Below are positions 1-15,526 of a stretch of 64,000 nucleotides of DNA, one piece after another; position 1 is the first letter of the stretch, and each line of letters opens with the position of its first letter. Made by a program: the position numbers and the translations under genes. The notes under the pieces were generated by a model. The model searched no databases. It had not been told where the DNA came from and worked only from the letters and a program-made list of their open reading frames with translations. This DNA comes from Lasiodiplodia sp. COLG20 (lineage: Eukaryota > Ascomycota > Dothideomycetes > Botryosphaeriales > Botryosphaeriaceae): positions 3,596,001-3,660,000 of the forward strand of contig VNWV01000001.1 of assembly GCA_009801085.1 (NCBI GenBank). The letters run 5' to 3'.

Positions 1-534
1 ACCTCCTTTGGAGACAGGGCCTGTAGCTTTCTTCCAAAGGGATCCCTTCTTCGTGCTTCATTGGGACAGTCTGGTGTGATTATCAAGCCCCATATTGCAT
101 TCAGAATATCGAGTCTCGTTAAACCATGCAAAAGGGAGCAAGCTTGCGGCTTTGCTGCAGTGATGTGTGGGGAATCTCCGTCTATAGTTTATTCGTTGAT
201 TCTCTTCACGGATAGAACCTCTCCACTGAGTTGAAACACGTTCAATAATTGTGCACCTTTTGCTTTCCTAATACTTAAGGCTACATAGGGTTATCATCCT
301 TTGTGTCATCCAATCATAATACCGCCTCGGCGCATTGTTGGATTGTGTAACATCAATTTCCTGTTGAGATGTCAGCTTACTGATCAGGCTGAACTCCGCA
401 CGGGCTGGCCCTTGTGGCTGCTGCCTGTAGCGAGGTAGATAAGCGGGTGCCTGCTTATTGCTTCCCCCTCATCGCCAACATCTCACGAGACAATTGCTAT
501 CCTTCGCATCATCACCATCCTCAGCCTGTCGACC
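1..534. other. Intergenic, 5' of HET gene
   Basis: No supported gene. The short ORF at 414-605 overlaps the start of the HET gene in another frame and is not convincing. This stretch presumably holds the HET promoter; I see no clear TATA element close to the start codon. Confidence 0.5.
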
Positions 535-2481
535 ATGCTCTGCGCAGTGTGCTTATCGATATTTCGCCAGAAAGAGAAACTTCTATTAGGCCCGCATCAT
601 ACTAGCATTGAACATCTCGAAATGGCAGCACGCTCTGGCTGCAGACTTTGTCTGGCGGTTCAACACAATATTCTCCCAGAAATCAGGAAATTTGATCAGG
701 AGAACGGCGCCCAAGACTGGAAATTTGTTTACGATCTAGCGTTTAATACACTCACCGTCGAAGCAGGAAACGACTATTGTCGTCTTGAACAATCATTTCT
801 CCTTGTGCGCTGTCCTGATATTCAGCACCCAAAAAATCGCAAAGACTTCCAGGACTTAGCTGCTATGGACCTCCTTCATCAGCCATGGCGTGTCAGGCAT
901 GACGATTATTGGCGAGATATTCCTGACAATACAGGACACAGCGATGTTGCCAAGCAGGCGCTTGATTGGCTCCAGACTTGCTTGAAGACACATAGCGCTT
1001 GTGAGTGTGATCTTCAAGCACCTGCGTACTATCCGAAACGGCTGCTCGATATTAGTCCGGATGAGAGCCGCCTCATTCTGACTGCCTCAGGGAGACCATG
1101 CAGCCAGTATGCGACACTCAGTCATTGCTGGGGATCCACCCCATTCTTCCGTCTGTCTTCGAGCAACGAGGAAGACCTTAAACGGCGGCTGCCTGTTGAA
1201 GAATTACCGCGATCGTTCCGCGACGCAATTCTCTTCACCCAGCGGCTCGGCATTCGATACCTATGGATAGACAGCCTGTGCATCCTGCAAGAAGGACCCG
1301 GACACGCCGAGGATTGGAACGAACAGGCCTCTCTCATGCACTCTATCTACTCGAATGGGATACTTAACATCTCAATTCTCCACGCACAAAACCCTCACGT
1401 TGGCGCCTTCAAAACTCGTAATCCAGATACAATACAGCCATGTTACATCTCTCGGTGTGAAGATGGGGTCTATGAAGACATGTGGGCTCTTCTGGACACT
1501 AACACTGATTTTCAAAACGCTATAACACGATCGACGCTCTCAAAACGTGGATGGGTAGTCCAAGAGCGGATGCTCTCGCCAAGGACGATACATTTCGCCT
1601 CCGACCGTATTTTCTGGGAATGCAGATCTGGCAATCTCCTCACGGAATCATACGTTTCAGGCCTGGGGAACATGCAGGAAGTTCAAATTGACGTTGATCT
1701 TTCCATATGCAAAGTGCCAACATCATCCAGACCCCGGGCCTACGAGATTTCATACGCATGGGACCAAGTCATCCAATACTACGCGGCGGCAGAGCTCAGC
1801 AAGCCAGAAAAAGACAAACTGATCGCTATTGCGGGTGTCGCCAGATATTTTGGTACCTTTTTCGATGATCAATATGTCGCGGGCTTTTTTCGCTGTCATC
1901 TTCCGTATAGTCTCCTTTGGGCGGCTTTGATGGAAGATGACTCCTTGCCCCCTGAACTTGCAGTCGGGATTGCCAGCACAACAGCATATCGAGGACCTAC
2001 TTGGAGCTGGGTCAGCACAAATAGCGGGATCAGTTTCCTGCTAGTTGATGTGTATGAGACGCAAGTCACTGTGGAAAGAGTGGATGTGCAGCCTCTGGAC
2101 CAGCAAAACAAGTACGGGCAAATCAAACACGCAGAAATAACACTGTGCGGAGTGTTGCTACCATGTAAGCTAAAGCATGATGCGAACGGTCATTTTCCAG
2201 GTTGGATGGGTATCTTGGAGCAATTTGAAGTCGCTGAAGACGGCACAATACTCCCTGGATCTCAGGATCGGGAAGGGGCAGACGGGCGTTTGAGAATAAT
2301 GCTGGACCGTACGCTCCATCCTTCATCGGAGCAAAGCTTTATGGCCCTACCTTTCGATCGTTACGGAGGACTTCTTTTACGGAGCACATATATACAGGGA
2401 GTCTATACGCGGGTAGGAGTATTCTTAGGTTATGCGAATATCCCTCAGGGTTGTCGTTGTCAGACTGTACAAATAGTTTGA
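535..2481 (+). CDS. HET-domain (heterokaryon incompatibility) protein
   Basis: Intronless 648-residue ORF beginning at ATG 535. The N-terminus (LCAVCLSIF, then a C-x2-C pair near residue 35) and the HET core are both present: YATLSHCWG near residue 190, then RYLWIDSLCILQ about 50 residues on, then SKRGWVVQERMLSPR near 340. These are the conserved blocks of fungal HET domains, which trigger cell death when activated during non-self recognition. A hydrophobic, W-rich C-terminal half (GPTWSWVS near 490) follows, as is usual. No NACHT or repeat domain is attached, so this is the stand-alone class. It ends about 160 bp from the 3' end of a convergent DUF3433 gene. The family assignment is firm; a specific allorecognition role is inferred. 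Confidence 0.9.
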   Translation: MLCAVCLSIFRQKEKLLLGPHHTSIEHLEMAARSGCRLCLAVQHNILPEIRKFDQENGAQDWKFVYDLAFNTLTVEAGNDYCRLEQSFLLVRCPDIQHPKNRKDFQDLAAMDLLHQPWRVRHDDYWRDIPDNTGHSDVAKQALDWLQTCLKTHSACECDLQAPAYYPKRLLDISPDESRLILTASGRPCSQYATLSHCWGSTPFFRLSSSNEEDLKRRLPVEELPRSFRDAILFTQRLGIRYLWIDSLCILQEGPGHAEDWNEQASLMHSIYSNGILNISILHAQNPHVGAFKTRNPDTIQPCYISRCEDGVYEDMWALLDTNTDFQNAITRSTLSKRGWVVQERMLSPRTIHFASDRIFWECRSGNLLTESYVSGLGNMQEVQIDVDLSICKVPTSSRPRAYEISYAWDQVIQYYAAAELSKPEKDKLIAIAGVARYFGTFFDDQYVAGFFRCHLPYSLLWAALMEDDSLPPELAVGIASTTAYRGPTWSWVSTNSGISFLLVDVYETQVTVERVDVQPLDQQNKYGQIKHAEITLCGVLLPCKLKHDANGHFPGWMGILEQFEVAEDGTILPGSQDREGADGRLRIMLDRTLHPSSEQSFMALPFDRYGGLLLRSTYIQGVYTRVGVFLGYANIPQGCRCQTVQIV

Positions 2482-2641: not shown

Positions 2642-5600
2642 CTACTCACCCTCCTCAACAACCTCAATACCCCACCTCCGCTCGCCACTGCTATCCTCAA
2701 ACCAGCCCAGCTTCGTCTTAACACCCCTCTCCTTCTCCAGGCCCTCCGATCCCCGCTCCCGCACGAGCTGCAGCAGCCTGTCGCTGTGCGCGACCAGGAC
2801 GAGCACGTCGCCCAGACACTCGATGTTGCGGTCGAGGTTGCGCAGGTACTTGCGCTGCAGCGCCGCGATGGCGACGGTCGTGAAAATCAGCCACGCGAGG
2901 ATGGCGACGCTGAGCCAGACGGCGACGGCGTTCATGCGTAGGAGCTCGACTTGAGTCGATACTTCGACGAGGGCGGTGCGATTCGTGTGGGATGGTGGTT
3001 GGGGTGGCAGCGGGAAGAGTTGGTAGCCCTCGCCTGGGACCCACTTGTAGGTCGAGTTGATGCCGTACGGCAGGCTCGCGTTGATTTCTTGGTACACCCA
3101 ACTTGGGGCCGTCGCTGATAGGTTGCTGCTCACGAAGTGTTGGAAGAAGGTCGAGAAGGCTTTCTCGGCGTGACGTTGCATGGTAGACGCGTTCAGAAGA
3201 GCGGTCGGGTCCTTGTTCGCCATCGCGTACATTGAATACGTCATGAAGTCGAGGTTGAGGCCCTGGCTTCGGTCGCGGAAGCCGAAGGTGTCTTGTAGCG
3301 TGGTCGTGCTTCCAAGCAGAGCTTCTATAAACATAACACCGTAGTTACTAAGCGATTGATCATTATTCAGTCAGCTAATTGTCTCCAAAAAAAAAAGCCA
3401 TCATTGCATTTCCCCAAAAGTTGACTTACAGCCCAGTGTAGTTTGCCTCAGCTGTGGAAAGTCGCCTCTTCTCCGGTGATAAGGCGGATTGTTTACCAGG
3501 GCCACGGTAATCTAAAAAGGCGTCATTCCATGCCTCCGTAGCGTTTACAGTCCCGGCTATGATGCTAAAAGAGTGCACTTCCCCACTGCGTGGGTCAAGC
3601 GTAACATTGGCAACCGTGGACTCAATTATTGGCTGGCAGTGGAGAGCTTGTACGGAAGGAATTTCCTTGTATATGGCTGTCCTATTCCATGTCTCGGAAG
3701 TGAACATTAAATCGCCGTGAATCCACTTCGTCGTCAAGGTTAGCGGCCATGTGAAACCCAGAAAGGGCCAGAAATTGCTGGGGTTTGGAGCTATTGGGAG
3801 ATCTGCCGTCCAATACCCCAGTGCAGAAGGTCCAGTTCCCTGTTCCGCGGAGCGATTTAGACAACATTGAACGTCAAGCCCATCTGCTAAATATGTCGTG
3901 TTGAAGAAGTTGGCCCCCGACCATGGGTTCGGCGGGCCCAGTCGGTACGCCGTTTCGAGTCCTTCTGGGATCGAATTTGTATTCAGGTGCATCGTGAGAT
4001 TGACCAGCGTGAGCCAAGAAGATGTGTCAGCTAGTTCTTCATAGCCACTGCATTTGACGCGACCACGGACTGCTGGAGTGGTCAACGATACCGTAACCTC
4101 TGGGGTGAAAGGAGAAGCCCCTAAATCTTGAGTAAGTTCTTTGTCGATAGAACGTGTTAATTCGAGGGGTACAAAGCTCCAGCCGTCCTTGCTCCAAGGT
4201 GGTTGAGATCCATTCAAAGCCAGCTGAATCGTGGCACTGTACAACCAGTTTGTGGCATCGCCGAGGTAAAATGTGGGGAGAAATGACCGTACGTATGCTA
4301 TTTTATCGCTCAGGCGTGACTGACAAGACGGACAATCGATGATGTAAGACGTCCGGCGTAGTTCGAGCTGTCTGTCGGCTTCATGGACTCTGATGATATT
4401 GCCTTGGCCGCGCTGAAATAGGGCGGACATAGCTATGGTGACTGAGATAAACATTAAAATGCAGATCACAGAAGCTCATTGTGGCACTCACAGATTGGTG
4501 TCAGAGACGTTCCGATTGCGATAAAACACAGCGTCCAGTGCTTATTATTAATGGCCATCCAAGCAGCGACAAACCAGTACGACCCCTCGTAGGTCAGGCT
4601 GGGACCTTCTGCCACAGCAGATGGACCTGCAGCCATTGAGACAAATGGTTGTAGTCTGCGGAACAATACATCCATTGCATCCCACCACAAGGATATGCCG
4701 ACTGACAGCAAGGTGGCAACAATCGGGAATGGCGTTATAGCTGGCATGTGATGATCGAAAATTGAAATATCTGTTTGGTAGACGAATGCTGTGTTGTAGA
4801 GAAGTGACTTTGATGCGAAGGAATATAGGATAATTATTGCCGTGAGCAAAGCTGTCAGAAATAGAATTAAAGGGCCAAGGGTTCGCAGACGCAGTAGCCC
4901 CGGTCTGCAGTCTTGTTCGAGATTGAGTGCCAATCCTTCTATAAAGTTGCCTTGTAAGATAGTGTGGTTGCTAAAACGCATTTTGCAAACTTACTTGAGA
5001 GATCATCATCTACAGCATGGCACAAGTGAAGTCCGTTAGGACCGGTGGAAACTGCATGGTCTCCAGTGACCCTGGAAAGATCCTGAAATGTAGGTAACTC
5101 TCCACTCATTGGAACTGGTATCATAAACACAGCTCCTATGGCTGTTGAGGGGTCAACTCGTACGTTGAGAGGCCGACGACCCTTCCAGACGCAGTTCCAG
5201 ACGATGAGCATTAGGCACAGTTCCAGGACCAGGAATACCATGATTGTGATTGAGGTGCCTGTGATCAATACAACACGTCTTTCAATTGCATCGACGTCTC
5301 CAATGAAAGTCTTCGATTGGACCGATCCATTCTGAAGTATGGAGTACTGGAGTACTTCACCAAACAGCCGTTGCTTGACCGCCTTGGCTTTTGCTAAAAG
5401 ATCATGATCTTCCATCATCGCCGTAAAGTCGAAATTATACAATGCTGCAAGCATAGGACACAGTCCGTAGTAAGCGCCGCCGCTATACGTATACGGTAGA
5501 TGCAAGTATTCCGCCCATGATGGATCAAAAGCAAGACTCTCGAATTGATGCACACTCAGAGAATCATCACTAATAGGCTTACGTTGCTTCCCATGATGAG

Positions 5601-7236
5601 ATTGACTGAAATGGACTGTGGAAGGACTACCGGAAGTGCGTGCTGAAGATTCGACCGTTGCTGTGTAATACGACGAGCGGCAATCCCAGCCACTAAACGT
5701 AAAATTGGACGAAAAGGTGAAATCCGACGAACCGGTTCCCCATGGACTAGAGATAAACATTATTTCATGTCCTTCACAGCCTTCGAAAGACTGGAAATTG
5801 GCTGTAAACTCGCCGTCGCTAAGTGCGGCGGAAGTGGCGTTATTTATCCACAAAGCCCCTCCCAATTGGACTATATCTAAGGGTACATACGCAGTCAGGT
5901 TGTAGGAACATCCGCTTTCGGATTCCAACAACAGCGAGGCGTATGAATCGGGATGGTAAGTGTAACGGCTCGGGACGCGGTACCACGTTTTGTTGATCAA
6001 TGACAATGAGCCGCATTCCATATCTGTAGTTAGGGCCAATGATTCCGCTCGCCAAATGCGTTGGTCGTCTCCCAAGATAGGTCCAACCGGCATCTCGGGA
6101 GCGTCCTTTGGCCAGAATGGGACCACGTAGAAGTTATCCGTGATCCAGGCAGACGTCGACGTATTCTGAAGTAAATGGCCAATAACCCGGAGGTAAGTCT
6201 CTCTTCCCATTGATAGCTGCAATGGAGAATGTGCCCATGGGAGTAGTGTCGAAAATTCAACTTTGCTCGAAACTAGAATGTCGGTGGACTCAAGAAGAGA
6301 CGCTGACAGTGGAGATATTGCCAGAAAACCGATAACATTGATTATGGACGCCGCAATCAGTACCCAGCTCCAGTGACCTCGGTTCTTCTTTTTCGAAAAG
6401 CCGTCAGCAAGCGCAGTCCACCAAGCTCCGGGTACCTTCCAGATTGTATACTTGGCTGGTCCGCCCCCGTCTTTTGCCATTCGAGCAAGAGGTTCAGTTC
6501 TCTTGACGTCGTTCAAGAGCATCGCCGTCATCTGGACGTAGAGAACCGCCAAGACGGAAGGTGTAAAGCGCCACCCCAAGAGGATAAGTGAGCTTCCATC
6601 GTCGCTTCCAATGCCATGGTGTGTAATCGAGTACCACTGCAACGAAAGGAGAATAACCAGTAGGGAAATGGTAGAGACCGTTAGGAGATACAGAAATGGC
6701 TGCTTGAGGGTATAAGGTTGCCAATCGAATGCTTCGTCTGTTAGGCCCTTGCTTCTATTCCGGAGATCCTCTCGCTCCTCATCATGGACCTCTGTTGCAA
6801 GAGAGGTATTGTTCAGGGAAAAATTGTCGCCATGAGTCTCTGTGTTGAGGCAAGCTCTCGACTCATCATCAAAGTCCCGAGGACTGTTCGCGATTGGCCT
6901 GTAGCCATCGTGGTGAAGATGTCCAGAATTTACAAGGCCCGCATCGCCGTTTCCTCTTTGCATCCCTTCGATAATCAGCGAGGCTTGCGAGTTATTCGAG
7001 GTGGCCTGCCTGTCTCGCAGGTCCCACCTAAGAACGACGGAGTCGGAGGATGAGTTGAAAGCGGTCGTGGGGTGTAATGACTCAAGCTCGATGTCGGGTT
7101 GAGAGATCCTGATTGGGACATCGGATTCGCGTTGCGCTGGCGGACAGTCCCTTTTGCTAGCTCTGATTCTTCCACCGTTGCCCGTGGCCCAAGCTTCCAT
7201 TAGTGGTTGTGAACTCTGATCTGAATGAGGTTCCAT
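2642..7236 (-). CDS. DUF3433 large membrane protein, copy 1
   Basis: Four exons by eye: 7236-4995, 4938-4492, 4441-3430 and 3347-2642. The introns (4939-4994, 4442-4491, 3348-3429) have GTAAGT, GTGAGT and GTAAGT donors and all phases close, giving about 1,468 residues. The first ATG of the long ORF is at 7236; the upstream extension has no ATG. A polar N-terminus of about 180 residues is followed by repeated blocks of the DUF3433 type: membrane segments, then RFTPSVLAVLYVQMTAMLLNDVKR, later a second set around LLRLRTLGPLILFL and a last one at VAVWLSVAILAWLIF. Between them lie N-glycosylation-rich presumed extracellular parts. The function of DUF3433 proteins is unknown. It is clearly paralogous to the next minus-strand gene: same intron positions after the SL(T/S)P and membrane blocks, same C-terminal KLGWF...RWG(I/V)EVV ending. 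It carries one extra intron (3348-3429) that copy 2 lacks. Confidence 0.85.
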
Positions 7237-8278
7237 ATCGCGCGATCTGCTGCATAAGCTAAGAATCCACGATTCGGCGCCCTGGATCCGATTTGGGCTG
7301 CAAGTTGGACGTAAGGCTTTCGTGAATTGAGGACTTCTGGGCTCTAGCACCAAAAACAGGGGGCTGCTTGATTTATTCTCTTAGCCTCGTAGTTCACAAG
7401 GGTGGGGCCGATATGTTGTGCGTGTGCACCGAAATGCAGCAGCAGGAAATGATTGGACACGCAGAATCATTCCGAACGAAGTCATTATTCTCCTTACTGT
7501 TGTAGAGTGTTTGACGCCTCTCTGCAATAGGCTGGTGTCACAAACTCGGTGCGGCCTCTTCCCTCTTCATATGGATCTCGGGCAACCCTTGACGTAACAT
7601 TCAGCCCCCAATCCCTTGGCCACAACGCCGTACGACGGTACGACCCTGCCAAAAAACCACTTCAGACAACTCAGCTTGGAAACGGGGCACTGTGTAACCC
7701 CCTTAGGCTGTGCTATCCTGTCATGTGGCTGGTCCAGAATTTTTGAGTATACCTCGGTCTTACCAAAAATAGCTTTACCTTTAGTTGCATATCCACACTT
7801 CCGCACGGAAAGGATAAGTCTGGGCTGCTGATATCGGTCGGCAGATCTAGCTGTTGCTCACCGTTAACGATCGCTACCGATGCTCTCTATTTGCCCATAC
7901 TCCAGATAGAGTGATGCTGCAAGGGCTGATGACACGATGTCTAAGGGGAGTGGAGGGGAAATGCACCTTCAAGTCAAAGATGACGTAGGCAATCTCGTCG
8001 CCTCCGTCCAATCACATGGCTTTATTACGGAATCCCAAAATAGCGACATCAAAATCCTGTCTAGTTGTCAAGACCGTGACTGCCCATTCACATACGCTTT
8101 CTGCAGGTATGCCCGTTATCCCAGCCTTACCAGAATATAAAATCACCGAGCGGAGCAGCAATACCGCAGATAGAGACGACAAAATTGAGAGACAGAGAAA
8201 AAGGACTGATCTGAGCGAGAAACAAGACCCGTTGGTATTTTCCCTTAATTTCTTTTCTCCCTGGCCAGGAGTAAAAAC
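7237..8278. other. Intergenic, about 1 kb
   Basis: No supported gene. It is the upstream region of DUF3433 copy 1 and the downstream side of the HET relic. ORFs of 60-80 residues on both strands show no recognisable family. Confidence 0.5.
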
Positions 8279-9451: not shown

Positions 9452-12400
9452 TCAATCCCCATCCCCCCCATCGACGACCTCAACCCCCCATCTCGCCTCC
9501 CCCCGATCACCACCCCCAAACCACCCCAACTTCGTCACCACCTCCCTCCCACCTCCCCCCTCCCTCAACACCCCCAACAACCCCTCACTCCCCGCCACCA
9601 ACACCAACACATCCGCCACACACGCCACGTCCCCCCTCAACACCGCCCAATACCCGCGCTGCCCCACCGCCGCCACAACCCCCGTCGTCACCACCAACCA
9701 CCCCAGAATCGCGACAGCCAACCACACCGCGACATCGTTCATCCGCAGCAGACTTATCCGCGTCGCCGCCACTACCTCCGCCGCGCGCTCCGTCGGCGGC
9801 TGCTGCGTCGGCCACGTCTCCGGGTCGTCGCACGTCGCGCCGGTGTAGTTCCAGAGGCAGCCGGGGAGGGTGGCGGCGAGCGGCTGCCAGGCCCAGCTGC
9901 CGGCGGTGAGGGTGGAGGCGGAGAGGTTGCTGGAGACGAAGTGTTGGAAGAAGGTTGAGAAGGTGGTTTGGGCGGTTGTAAGCATGGTGTGGGCGGAGAG
10001 GAGGGCGTGGGGGTCGACCGAGGCGGCGGAGGACGACGAGGAAGAGGAAGAGGCGAGCGTGTACATGGCGTACGTCATGAAGTCGAAGTTCAGGCCGCGC
10101 TCGTGGTCGCGGAAGTTGAACGTCATGTCATCCGTGTTCTCGGCCACGGTGTCGAAGTCCCAGCCCGTGTAGCCATTGATCGACGCGGCGCGCAGCATGG
10201 AGAGGAGAAAAAGAATGCCGTAGCTGACGGAGACGTTCGACGGCGCTGTCGGGTCTTTCACTTCGTCGCGGTCGCCGTAGTCGACGAAGTTGTAGCGCCA
10301 CGCCTCGTCTGCGCTCGACGGCGGCTCGAGGATTGAGAACTTGGCGACGGCGCCGGTTTGCCGGTCGACGGTCACGTTGGCGGAGCTCTTCTCGATGATG
10401 GGCATGCACTTCAGCGCTTGGACCTGGGGAACTTCGGTGAACAAGAAGCGCGTGGGGCTGGTGTAGATGTTGTCGGTGATGAGGTCCGCGGAGAAATGGT
10501 TGCCCCAGATGTATTTGGTCGTGAAGTTGAATGGCGGCTGGAAGGTGGTGCCGCGGTCGGGCGACCAGTTGCCGATGGCAGCGCCTTTGGGTGGCCAGCT
10601 GGTGCTGCCGTTCTCGCAGCATATGGGCGTGGAGTCGTCTGCAAGTATCGACGTGTTGAAGAAGTTCGGGTACGCCAAGTCTCCGTAGGTTGCCTCTCCT
10701 AATTCGTACGCAGTCTTGGCTTTGTGTGGATTCGAGCTTGCGTTCCATAGCGAAGTGTTTGTCAAGTCCCGTTCCGTGACCCAGGCTGATAAATTATTCA
10801 AGTTTTCATACGGGCTGCATTCTATGCGGCCTCTGATGGCGGGCGTGACGACGGAGATATTGGTTGCTGGAATAACGGAAGAATTCTGAGGTGGGTTGGG
10901 TATCTCGATCTGAGACAGGTCGAGCGGAGCGAAACTCCAGCCATCGCGGCTCCATGGCGGTTGGGACCCGTTCATTGTTAGTTGTAGCGTCGCACTATAC
11001 AACCAATTCGTGGAGAAATTGGTATAGAGGTTAGAGACGATGCGAGCATTGTTGGTACCTGAAACCTGGCCCGTGAATTCCCATTCCGCTCGAAACAGAA
11101 AGGGAATTTGACGCAGTTCAAGGTTTCTTGTCGCGGATAAAGGGTGAACGAGGCTTCCTTGAGTGCGCTCAAACAAGGCAGACATAGCGATGGTTACTAA
11201 ACAGATTAGTACGTATTCTTATCCATCAGTGAAAGGAGTCTTACGAAGCGGCGAAAGGGAAGTTCCTATAGTAATTAAAAACAAGAACCAATGTTTCCTT
11301 GTTGCAGCCCAAAAGGCAGCCCAGGCCCAATACGATGACTGGTACGACAAGTCTATTCCGCGAGAGCGGGGTTGTGGTTTTTCGGCCATGGATAGATATG
11401 GTTGCAAGCGACGGAAGGTTGCGTCTAATGCACCCCACCATAAGCCAACTGATACGGCCAGTAAGGTGGGGATAATAGAGATTGGTGCTATCGTATGAGT
11501 CCCGAAGATTGACACGTCTGTTTCATAGACAAATGCTTCGCTGTAGAGAAGTGACCGCTTGGCGAAGCTGTAGAGAACAATCACGGCTACTGCAAGGGCG
11601 AGAAGAAAGAGGACAAAAGCCGTCAGTGTTCGTAAGCGAAGTACAGCCGGCCGCCAATCTGGCTTTGAAAGTTCGGCTTCCGTAGTTGTTGTATCTTGAA
11701 ACCGTTAGACAATAAACAAATGAAAGTCGGACAGCTTACGCACCTGGGTCCGCTCTCGTGATCTCACTTGATTCATGCAAGACCGACGGTGTGGTGAAGT
11801 ATCGTTTCTCTTGCAGAGCGCCCTTCGTGGAAGCATGCTTAAATGAGTTCTGCGTAGTAGGCGCATTGACGATCAAAGAGGCGACACCCGTAGTCGTGGC
11901 TGGGTCCTGTCGTAGATTGAGGGGTCTGAATCGATGGCCGGATAGTGTCCATAATACTGCAAGTAGGCACAAAGATAGGAAGAAGAATGTCGCCAAAGCA
12001 ATGGCAACTCCAGATGTCACTACAATGCGCGTCGCAACAACTGTCACAGTCCCGTTAATGTTCCTCTCCGGAGCATGCTGCTCCTGAAGAGAATACTGTA
12101 GTACCTCACCAAAGATTCTCTGCTTCACACGAGAGGCCTGAGTGAGCAAATCGTGGTCGTCCACCATAGCCTTGAAGTTGAAGTTGTAAAGAGCTCCGAA
12201 AAGGACCATTAAGCCAGTGTTAGGGGGGCGGCTCATTGATGATGAGGACTCTACCAGGTAGTCTGACCAAGGAAAGCCGAGAGATAGATTTTGAGCCAGA
12301 TTGACGTCTAAGAAGCTGTCGGGAATAGGCGAGCGCTTTTTGCGGTATTCCTCTTCATCGAATACCATCTCGGAAAAAGTGCTGGATATGCGGGCCGTGA

Positions 12401-13772
12401 CGTTCATCTCGGCCATGTAGTAGTTTGCGGAGCATATTTGCGTCACGGGAAGAGCCGTTTCGTTTGTCGGCGCGATTAGAATGAATTCCCTCTCTCCACA
12501 ACCACTAGTCCAATTGGCCGGGGTTAATTCAGTTGTAACCAAGGTCCTGTTGTCGTACCAGGATCCAAATGGCGGATCAAGCCGGAATTCATGCGTGCAT
12601 CCATCGCCAGAATCCAAGACTGCGACGGTGATGTCTATAGGTATGTCGCTGACGTTCATCTCTTTCATCCTGATCAACGACATCGTCTTGCACTCAAGTT
12701 CAGTATTCAAGACCGTGGTTTCAGCTTCCCACTCCTGGGGAGTCGTTGCCAAGAAAGGTCCAAGAGGAGCACTCGGTCGATCAGAGGGCCAGAAAGGGAT
12801 GATTGTGTAGTCGTCGCTTATCCACGCAGAAGTTGAAACATCCTGTAGGAGATGACCAATGGTCCGCAACATGGTCTCCCTTCCACTCGTCGGCGAAATA
12901 GGGCCTTCGGGCGCCATGCGAGAAAATTGGCCGTCGGTACTGACAGAAATATCCATCGGCTCCAAAAGTGAAGATGACAGCGGTGACACCACCAAAAATC
13001 CGATTATGTTGATGAGGGCAGAGGAAACGAGGACCCAGCTTCTTCCTCCTTTCTTTGAGAAGCCGTCCGCTAGGGCATTCCACCATGCTCCTGGAGCTCG
13101 AAGTATGCTTGAGTATGCTGGAGCACCTCCAAACTTGGCCATCTGGGCGAAAGCCTCGGTTCTTTTGACGTCATCGAGAAGCATCGCAGTCAGTTGGACG
13201 TAAAAGACGGCGAGGAGAGAAGGGGTGAAACGCCATCCGAAGAACTGCATCGTTGAGTCATCGTCGCTGCCCAATCCATCATTTTTGACCGAGTAGTGGA
13301 GAAGTAGAGACACGAGGAGAAGTAGGGTCAACATTGAGACAGCGAGAAGTGCGAGAAACCACCATCGGAGGGTGTATGGTTGCCATGAAGCCGCGTTATG
13401 GCCGACTCTTCCAGAGTCCTCCTCAAGAGCCTCATACTTGATCGAGTTTCGATTTTGATAGCCTCCCGGACCAGGATGTGAGACATAATTGTGGGGCGGA
13501 AAACTGCACGTGACTGGCTCAGAATATGGCTCAGCCTGATCGTAATTTCGGATGCTCGAAGCCTTCGTACTACTGGTGGACTCGGCTTCTAAAATTTGTC
13601 TTTCCGGTTCACGAGGATGCGTAGATAGATCGTCTTGTCTTGATATCCCTTCCTGCGAGTCCACTGGGTGTTCCAGGTCCTGTCCAGAGTCGGCGGAAAG
13701 CGGGTATTGAAGCAGAGGTATTTCGACCTCGGCGCTATGGCTCTTTCTCACGGATGGACGGCGAGACTCCAT
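9452..13772 (-). CDS. DUF3433 large membrane protein, copy 2
   Basis: Three exons by eye: 13772-11744, 11694-11245 and 11196-9452, introns 11695-11743 (donor GTGCGT) and 11197-11244 (donor GTAAGA, branch TACTAATC, acceptor TTTAG). The phases close exactly to 1,407 residues. Order: polar N-terminus to about residue 130; paired membrane helices (WWFLALLAVSMLTLLLLVSL); RFTPSLLAVFYVQLTAMLLDDVKR; glycosylation-rich outer part; a helix near 610; then a second DUF3433 unit with AVLRLRTLTAFVLFLLALAV, an outer region, and a last helix (VAVWLAVAILGWLVV). A serine run of about nine residues near 1,170 is unique to this copy. The 3' end is strongly C-rich on the plus strand (9470-9700) and encodes a glycine-rich tail. 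Paralog of copy 1 in tandem; role unknown. Confidence 0.85.
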
Positions 13773-14307: not shown

Positions 14308-14952
14308 TTACCTGAAGTTGCTGATTGCGGAGGAAAAGAACCACTTCCGTTGTCTCACTCCATTTTCGCGGATGGAAACTGGGGGCATCTGTGATCCGCT
14401 TTGAGAGTCACCCGCCAGATTCCTATTTGAAGGAATTGGTATTTTTCTCTCCATATAATATTTGATAGTGCGGATGGAGTTCTCCAAGATCTGTTTCGAA
14501 AGGTAAGTCGGCAGTAACTTGGCCAAGATGAGAAGGAAGTATGCAGGAACTTCATGATTGTCCTGAGAGTGCCTCTGTCTCCTCTTTGTTATCCGAGGAT
14601 ACAAATACCCAAGAAATTCCCCAAGGCGGATCATGCATTTCTTGAGCGGGTAGAAGAATAGAGTGAAAACGGGGTGATAATGGACAATGTGAGTGATCAC
14701 TACGGGTGAAAGCTTTGCTGCCAGCAATTGGAGTTGATTGCTAACTTCGAGTTGACCACAAAGGCCAAAGCTGTCTAAGGAGTGTGGCTTGTACATGTAG
14801 GAGAGTTTGTACAATCCAGCGTGCTCAATGAGCAAGTGCGTCCAACAGATCTTAGAAGTCACCGATCTCGCTGTCTCGAGCCCTCGGAATCGGTAGCGCT
14901 TCGGATCACTGCCCAACTTCCTCACCCAGTGGAGGTTTCGCCGGAACACCAT
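14308..14952 (-). CDS. Hypothetical ORF, 214 residues (doubtful)
   Basis: Open frame from ATG 14952 with no recognised family, no signal peptide and no clear domain; it is basic and contains one hydrophobic stretch (VVITHIVHYHPVFTLFFYPL). It starts only 15 bp after the stop of the micro-exon peptide gene on the same strand. That peptide's spliced frame cannot run into it, because every splice combination of 3-nt exons keeps the TAA at 14967-14969 in frame. It may be 3' UTR of that gene, a separate gene or chance. Confidence 0.2.
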   Translation of the reverse strand: MVFRRNLHWVRKLGSDPKRYRFRGLETARSVTSKICWTHLLIEHAGLYKLSYMYKPHSLDSFGLCGQLEVSNQLQLLAAKLSPVVITHIVHYHPVFTLFFYPLKKCMIRLGEFLGYLYPRITKRRQRHSQDNHEVPAYFLLILAKLLPTYLSKQILENSIRTIKYYMERKIPIPSNRNLAGDSQSGSQMPPVSIRENGVRQRKWFFSSAISNFR

Positions 14953-14966
14953 GGCAAGGTCCGTGC

Positions 14967-15411
14967 TTACTGTAATTATGTTAGGTATAATTCGGATAGA
15001 AGGCGGAAGTGGGACTACTTACACACTGTAGTATCGTCCATCCCAGAATGGGTAGTGGTTAGTAAAAGAGCGGAAAGGATTGATAGTAATAGGGCTAAGC
15101 TTACGCACTGTATTGGGTTAGAACATATACAACAGCATGAATAGTTGGAGGAGTACTTACTTTCTGATTTAATCATTGCCAAAGTGAGGCATGCGGTTAG
15201 TCCAGTTACAATGAATCAAGAGTAAGAAGCTCACGTTGTTACCGCAGCACCTGGCGCGGTTGGCGCAACCACCGGGGCAGCGAGGATCGTACTGCCTGGC
15301 GACGAGGTTCTCAATAGGCTCGGCCTCGGCGACGGCTTCGGCGTCGTGGGCCAGAGGAGTGGCGGCGGCAAGGCCGACGAGGAAGGTCATGGCGATGTAA
15401 AGGAACTTCAT
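14967..15411 (-). CDS. Small secreted cysteine-rich peptide with three one-codon micro-exons
   Basis: Exon 1 (15411-15235, 59 codons) starts MKFLYIAMTFLVGLAAATPLA, a clear signal peptide, followed by an acidic A/E-rich pro-region, the sequence LVAR, and a short cysteine-rich end (C-x3-C-x5-CC). Four consecutive introns follow: 15234-15164, 15160-15108, 15104-15026 and 15022-14970. Their donors are GTGAGC, GTAAGT, GTAAGC and GTAAGT; each contains a CTAAC branch site and ends in CAG. Between them lie exons of exactly three bases: AAA (15163-15161), TGC (15107-15105) and TGT (15025-15023); the last exon opens with TAA (14969-14967). The product is 62 residues and gains Lys-Cys-Cys, bringing the mature part to six cysteines, C-x3-C-x5-CC-x4-CC. 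Reading through the first intron instead would give an 80-residue protein with an odd cysteine and a non-conserved tail. Likely an extracellular disulfide-rich peptide; function unknown, an effector or antimicrobial role is only a guess. Confidence 0.75.
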
Positions 15412-15518
15412 GTTGTCGGTGGAAAAGGTGGCAGCTGGAAGCTTGAGGTTGTGAGGTGATTTGTTGGTGAAGTGGTGGTGTGGTGGTTTGGTGCCTCTTC
15501 TACCGACTGCCGTCCCTC

Positions 15519-15526
15519 TTTATATA
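15519..15526 (-). promoter_or_regulatory. TATA box of the cysteine-rich peptide gene
   Basis: TATATAAA on the minus strand, about 108 bp upstream of the start codon at 15411, preceded by a pyrimidine-poor GTGGTG-rich leader. Spacing suits a strongly expressed, inducible small secreted protein gene. Confidence 0.55.

Follow-up and report, generated by a model that had tools for sequence, protein, structure and literature searches.

A putative secreted six-cysteine peptide gene with three serial single-codon exons in Lasiodiplodia sp. COLG20

In the 64,000-nucleotide stretch analyzed here (hereafter the window) of DNA from Lasiodiplodia sp. COLG20, a member of the plant-associated Botryosphaeriaceae, the minus strand carries at 14967..15411 a 59-codon exon, four complete introns, and an in-frame TAA; the spacers between the four introns are exactly AAA, TGC, and TGT, and the TAA directly follows the final acceptor. 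We regard this arrangement, with a probability of approximately 0.83 and on the evidence of sequence, as a genuine, lineage-restricted gene that would encode a small secreted six-cysteine peptide by means of three single-codon exons. An earlier note on this DNA had proposed the four introns, the AAA, TGC, and TGT gaps, and the in-frame stop, and all of these elements lie on the minus strand where the note had placed them. Its gene model of three single-codon exons and a Lys-Cys-Cys end is supported by the sequence, from which we infer the splicing itself.

Predicted gene structure, peptide, and order of splicing

Exon 1 (15235..15411, minus strand, 59 codons) begins with the ATG at 15411 and ends with Asn-Asn at 15235; a TATA-box-like TATATAAAG, as read from the sequence, is located on the same strand at 15518..15526, approximately 107-115 bases upstream of the ATG. 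The exon encodes a hydrophobic N terminus that appears signal-like by eye, an acidic pro-region ending in ...VAR|Q, and a core that opens with Gln-Tyr-Asp-Pro-Arg-Cys, with cysteines at residues 45, 49, 55, and 56. It is followed on the minus strand by intron 1 (15164..15234, 71 nt, GTGAGC donor, CTAAC and CAG separated by 32 nt), the AAA (Lys) micro-exon (15161..15163), intron 2 (15108..15160, 53 nt, GTAAGT, 9 nt), the TGC (Cys) micro-exon (15105..15107), intron 3 (15026..15104, 79 nt, GTAAGC, 32 nt), the TGT (Cys) micro-exon (15023..15025), intron 4 (14970..15022, 53 nt, GTAAGT, 10 nt), and the TAA that opens the last exon (14967..14969). The distance from branch to acceptor thus alternates along the chain (32/9/32/10 nt). 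Each intron contains a single CTAAC, and the first AG downstream of it is that of the terminal CAG in all four cases. Judged by a GT donor, a CTRAY branch, a YAG that is the first AG past the branch, and a fungal length, all four introns are of the U2 type.

The three internal exons are all 3 nt long and in phase 0, and two of them encode cysteine. The spliced reading yields C-x3-C-x5-CC-x4-CC, the six-cysteine pattern that had been described in the earlier note. The product would consist of exon 1 plus Lys-Cys-Cys-stop (62 aa); once the signal had been removed and the acidic pro-region cut off at Arg-Gln, a basic peptide of 23 residues would remain, the six cysteines of which may form three disulfides. 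A basic, six-cysteine, secreted peptide of 23 residues fits an antimicrobial or host-directed role. Exon 1 matched no Pfam family at E values up to 0.01, and the 23-residue core matched no PDB sequence at E values up to 10. A dikaritin-type RiPP cluster was considered and rejected, since of the UstYa (DUF3328) matches listed for the genome, which has at least 22, none lies in the window; the nearest of those listed on the same contig is approximately 490 kb from the gene. Several UstYa (PF11807) matches are clustered on each of contigs C7, C34, and C57, which are possible RiPP loci.

In the preferred model, the four canonical introns would be taken out in separate steps, with AAA, TGC, and TGT remaining as exons. 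In intron-defined fungal splicing, a 3-nt exon can survive if the adjoining introns leave one after another. Introns 2 and 4, which are 53 nt long and have the branch 9-10 nt from the acceptor, would probably be removed before introns 1 and 3. From the branch of intron 1, and likewise from that of intron 3, the next donor is 35 nt away, and a complex assembled on this branch would leave both neighbors recognizable, while the intron 2 branch is just 12 nt before the intron 3 donor, so that introns 2 and 3 would be mutually exclusive until intron 2 has been removed.

The consequences of intron retention were enumerated over 16 patterns. The eight that retain intron 1 all end at one stop within it; in seven of them a junction still lies beyond this stop, and the eighth has no junction left. 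Expression may thus be gated by the removal of intron 1. An initial extension of this rule to introns 2 and 3 was dropped on testing for the patterns in which either is kept alone, and a stop ahead of a remaining junction is likewise absent when intron 4 is the only one retained. The products are 100 aa with intron 2 alone, 75 aa with intron 4 alone, and 90 aa with introns 3 and 4.

The 32-nt stretches between branch and acceptor fold into small hairpins in intron 1 (15174..15193, minus strand; -5.6 kcal/mol, z -1.38) and intron 3 (15038..15055, minus strand; -5.4 kcal/mol, z -1.03), both of which are weak. The whole introns fold no better than shuffled sequences (z 0.21 and 0.24), and the intron 1 hairpin is not part of the best whole-intron fold. 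The known part of the corresponding Macrophomina intron 1 stretch folds at near -5.5 kcal/mol, a value matched by 5.5% of simple shuffles. These individually weak hairpins are a hint only.

Several other features were noted in the window. A 214-aa open reading frame without a Pfam match (14308-14952, minus strand) begins 14 bases past the TAA of the peptide gene on the same strand; this frame may be fortuitous, may be a gene in its own right, or may serve as an alternative end. On the 5' side, the peptide gene is adjoined by an arylsulfotransferase-family gene (PF14269; 16407-18215, minus strand). Further away are two DUF3433 (PF11915) genes with one match each (4939-7353 and 11736-13772, both on the minus strand), which are possibly tandem paralogues, and a gene for a HET-domain (heterokaryon incompatibility) protein (535-2481, plus strand).

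Chance expectation and genome-wide context

The chain does not appear to be a product of chance. Under a strict intron definition (GTRAGY, CTAAC, first AG = CAG, 45-100 nt), the whole window contains two introns on the plus strand and four on the minus strand, the latter being precisely the chain. The earlier note had considered a chance placement of the chain to be unlikely, and this view was borne out by a simulation in which a first-order Markov model of the window generated 1,764 Mb of sequence without producing even a chain of two strict introns. A medium definition gave 47 two-chains and no three-chain, and a loose definition gave 920 two-chains, one three-chain, and no four-chain. In a real-sequence sample of 264 kb, which comprised the window and 20 other 10-kb stretches, 11 strict introns were detected, and the only pairs spaced by 0-30 nt were the three of the chain. 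The medium definition found 96 introns in the same sample, with one other close pair, at a 7-nt spacing (L019).

Genome-wide, the pattern CTAAC-4..18-CAG-NNN-GTAAGT gave three matches, none of which was the peptide locus, versus three in a reversed control, and the same pattern with GTRAGY gave 12 versus 17. As these matches do not exceed the reversed control, the genome shows no enrichment of 3-nt exons built in this way. Among the 12 GTRAGY matches, the peptide locus is alone in combining a GTRAG donor 45-60 nt upstream with the lack of an earlier AG and with a CTAAC/CAG intron downstream. The pattern sees short branch-acceptor gaps only and, being blind to long branch distances, covers just the TGC junction at the peptide locus; within this scope, no second locus matched equally well in the 43.5-Mb genome. 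A cysteine-specific pattern, CTRAC..YAG-TGY-GTRAG, had a single genome-wide match, the peptide locus, versus two in the control. Three other loci among the 12 matches (L024, L025, and L033) are weaker candidates. At approximately position 1501 of L025 (minus strand), a possible micro-exon of 17 nt is flanked by CTAACTTATAG and GTAAGT; a GTACGT donor precedes the end of the matched acceptor by 66 nt, and a CTAAC/TAG intron follows.

A search of the genome with a 501-base stretch of the locus matched only the locus itself, with no DNA copies elsewhere. Introner-like similarity between the introns beyond their splice motifs was not detected (p > 0.2 for all six pairs); an origin by intron duplication was rejected as having no support, the score of the whole unit being inflated by common splice motifs. 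No convincing paralogue was found in the genome, where the second match was weak (L002, 41% identity over 32 residues, E 0.0149).

Homologues and the fit with Macrophomina

Two protein searches covering approximately 5.8 billion sequences, with the same result, identified five homologues, the named one being the NCBI model B0J12DRAFT_701177 of Macrophomina phaseolina (P0005). Exon 1 is 81-100% identical to the five over 59 aa, and its four cysteines are invariant in the four exon 1 sequences that were aligned. The homologues part directly after the Asn-Asn that precedes the intron 1 donor. Four of the five models then run into intron 1 as VS..., as expected from a GTRAGY donor read through, and the fifth, the Macrophomina NCBI model, uses other splice sites; the expectation in the earlier note that annotation pipelines would miss the structure thus holds for the database homologues. 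The read-through tails differ in length and sequence (VSFSILLFF, VSLLILLCSSGDRLTTCPTG, and VSFLLLILCNWTNRMPHFGND), with two of the four being alike (P0002 and P0006, both 80-aa open reading frames). No orthologous DNA was found among viral contigs or prokaryote genome contigs, and an antisense open reading frame over introns 2-4, searched as a proxy for such DNA, had no homologue at E values up to 10.

Macrophomina DNA was deduced from two protein models, P0004 and P0005, rather than read directly. P0004 is a read-through open reading frame with an exon 1 identical to that of P0005, and the two represent two frames of one DNA, for which one of the 12 offsets tried was consistent. This offset fixes the Macrophomina DNA as ...[AC]GACTAACCACATGCCCGACGGGGT..., which indicates that the CTAAC branch of intron 1 is kept there. 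By hand counts from the proteins, the branch-acceptor distance of this intron is approximately 31 nt in Macrophomina and 32 nt in the window.

The tail of P0005 has 42 aa, ends in ...PEMRKPNLIFDIIHSFTNKATTWDGQYNSVK, and contains PEMRK and NSVK. On sequence grounds, the same blocks give the best account of the Macrophomina model, with introns 2 and 4 spliced and intron 3 retained. If Macrophomina DNA reads CAG|AAA|GT...AG|TGC|GTAAG...AG|TGT|GT...AG|TAAR and is spliced in this manner, the junctions AAA|TGC|GTAAG and AG|TGT|TAAR would dictate E, M, R, and K at the first and S, V, and K at the second in the frames concerned; the tail has all of them, and the E-M-R-K of P0005 runs unbroken across AAA|TGC|GTAAG. 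When the tail was shuffled 2,000,000 times, 116 shuffles contained a pattern of the PEMRK kind and 100 one of the NSVK kind, the patterns having been framed after the match was seen. Within the retained intron 3, both species have SFTN, which lies over the branch, WDG, and, at the TGT junction, SV; in the preferred reading, and by a hand count from the protein, the intron is 76 nt long in Macrophomina, with 32 nt past the branch, as in the window.

A blind spliced alignment of P0005 with the window DNA (flat penalties, any GT-AG pair, nine settings) recovered the intron 2 acceptor, before TGC, in eight of the nine settings. The intron 2 donor was recovered in none, and position 15209 was chosen as the donor in all nine instead of that after AAA. 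Both sites of intron 4 were exact in six of the nine settings and in none of the three with the highest intron penalty; one setting picked an acceptor at 15095|CCC. The AAA position reads ARA in Macrophomina under the preferred reading, such that by the code alone AAA could be AGA there, and the TGT position could likewise be CGT. The last intron could be absent in Macrophomina if its donor base has been lost. A further possible reading of the tail, with MRK from ATGAGAAAG, would place a poor GAG acceptor before AAA. It was set aside as less probable than the AAA|TGC|GTAAG reading, under which four residues are identical, the acceptor is CAG, and the branch-acceptor spacing is conserved. Orthologues lacking the KCC end had been named in the earlier note as evidence against its model. 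The deposited Macrophomina protein does lack KCC, and in this respect the evidence is against the model, while the deduced DNA, which is in its favor, fits AAA, TGC, and TGT at the same junctions.

Alternative readings, known systems, and significance

As an addition to the preferred model, the phase-0 micro-exons may be skipped in combinations to give forms with four, five, or six cysteines, a possibility that we consider on sequence grounds to be rather unlikely, at perhaps one chance in several. The frame is intact in each of the eight inclusion patterns, with translation stopping at one common TAA, and schistosome micro-exon genes, the micro-exons of which are described as mostly symmetric (PMC4671649), provide a precedent; however, the splice sites look strong throughout, which favors full inclusion, and the cysteine codons appear to be conserved, as those of a constitutive product would be. 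More speculative is the idea that the single-codon exons act as a splice-set code, in which zero, one, or two cysteine exons (with the lysine exon) set the disulfide valence and hence the shape or dimerization of the peptide, with the hairpins of introns 1 and 3 timing or conditioning the splicing.

The remaining readings dispense with part of the chain. If intron 1 alone were mostly spliced and the other intron-like blocks rarely used, the product would end in KVSTPPTIHAVVYVLTQYSA; the tail is open past exon 1 and the automatic Macrophomina model (P0005) lacks the full chain, but this reading would leave unexplained three further perfect introns at 3-nt spacings as well as the agreement between genera around TGC and at the TGT/TAA junction, and is very unlikely. 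Simple read-through into intron 1, to an 80-residue protein such as P0002 and P0006, is hardly to be expected, because callers that ignore introns yield such open reading frames by design and the tails vary among homologues in length and sequence, in contrast to the conserved exon 1. A transcript that keeps intron 3 alone would enter the downstream 214-aa frame and encode 308 aa, the sole long product among the 16 retention patterns (the others giving 62-100 aa). That this form, which includes a hydrophobic stretch, is a meaningful protein seems highly improbable: the two frames would agree by chance in one case out of three, the downstream frame has no Pfam match, and the Macrophomina model, which also keeps intron 3 in the preferred reading, does so in another frame with a stop soon after. 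Nested introns that are excised stepwise are known in Pezizomycotina, as described for stwintrons (PMC6616335), and the block could in principle be a complex intron of this kind, removed whole and leaving no or one micro-exon. However, every donor, branch, and acceptor in it is whole and uninterrupted, with the introns 3 nt apart and no element split by an internal intron, and removal of the whole would waste two apparently conserved cysteine codons; we attach very little credence to it.

Exons of 3 bp are already known as single cases, as are runs of consecutive micro-exons that differ in size. Schistosome micro-exon genes are described as encoding small secreted proteins, with a longer exon at the 5' end for the signal peptide and a run of short exons, the lengths of which were divisible by 3 in 26 of 33 cases in one set (PMC4671649). 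All three internal exons of the fungal gene are likewise shorter than 36 bp and symmetric. The schistosome genes have a central run of micro-exons of less than 36 bp between flanking exons, with splice variation proposed, whereas the fungal gene has three one-codon exons at the extreme C terminus and, its last exon opening with TAA in the full form, does not have a 3' flanking coding exon. The bicycle genes of aphids, putative effectors with many very small exons that are poorly found by sequence searches (PMC9168663), are reported to have approximately 17 exons on average, with nearly all internal exons in phase 2, in contrast to the three 3-nt, phase-0 exons here. In Trichoderma virens, Xlr2 contains a functional micro-exon that was missed by the JGI annotation, and the authors state that none had previously been described in filamentous fungi (PMC11121469); that case, also from a filamentous ascomycete, differs in being a single 20-nt exon of a transcription factor with glucose-dependent inclusion. 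The 3-bp exon 2 of Ganoderma lucidum gpd (PMC8379801) is a single one, at the 5' end of a basidiomycete housekeeping gene. Human RPS24 has three consecutive micro-exons at its 3' end (PMC11162997), but of mixed sizes (3, 18, and 22 bp) and in an intracellular ribosomal protein, and Drosophila homothorax (hth) has a conserved 3-bp single-codon micro-exon, as do others named in the same paper (PMC7392893), but only one, which is an alternative to a 48-bp exon. Among the matches listed in searches of open-licence PubMed Central on micro-exons, stwintrons, and 3-nt exons, no case of several single-codon exons in series was found, nor was any article in that collection found on Macrophomina phaseolina together with microexon.

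If it is spliced as predicted, the gene would provide an extreme test of intron definition, with alternating branch-acceptor spacing and three serial exons whose length leaves no room for contacts that bridge an exon. It further suggests that a class of small, secreted cysteine peptides is invisible to current annotation, as in the deposited Macrophomina protein, from which the Lys-Cys-Cys end is missing. Other peptides that plant-associated fungi secrete may have been given wrong gene models of the same sort.
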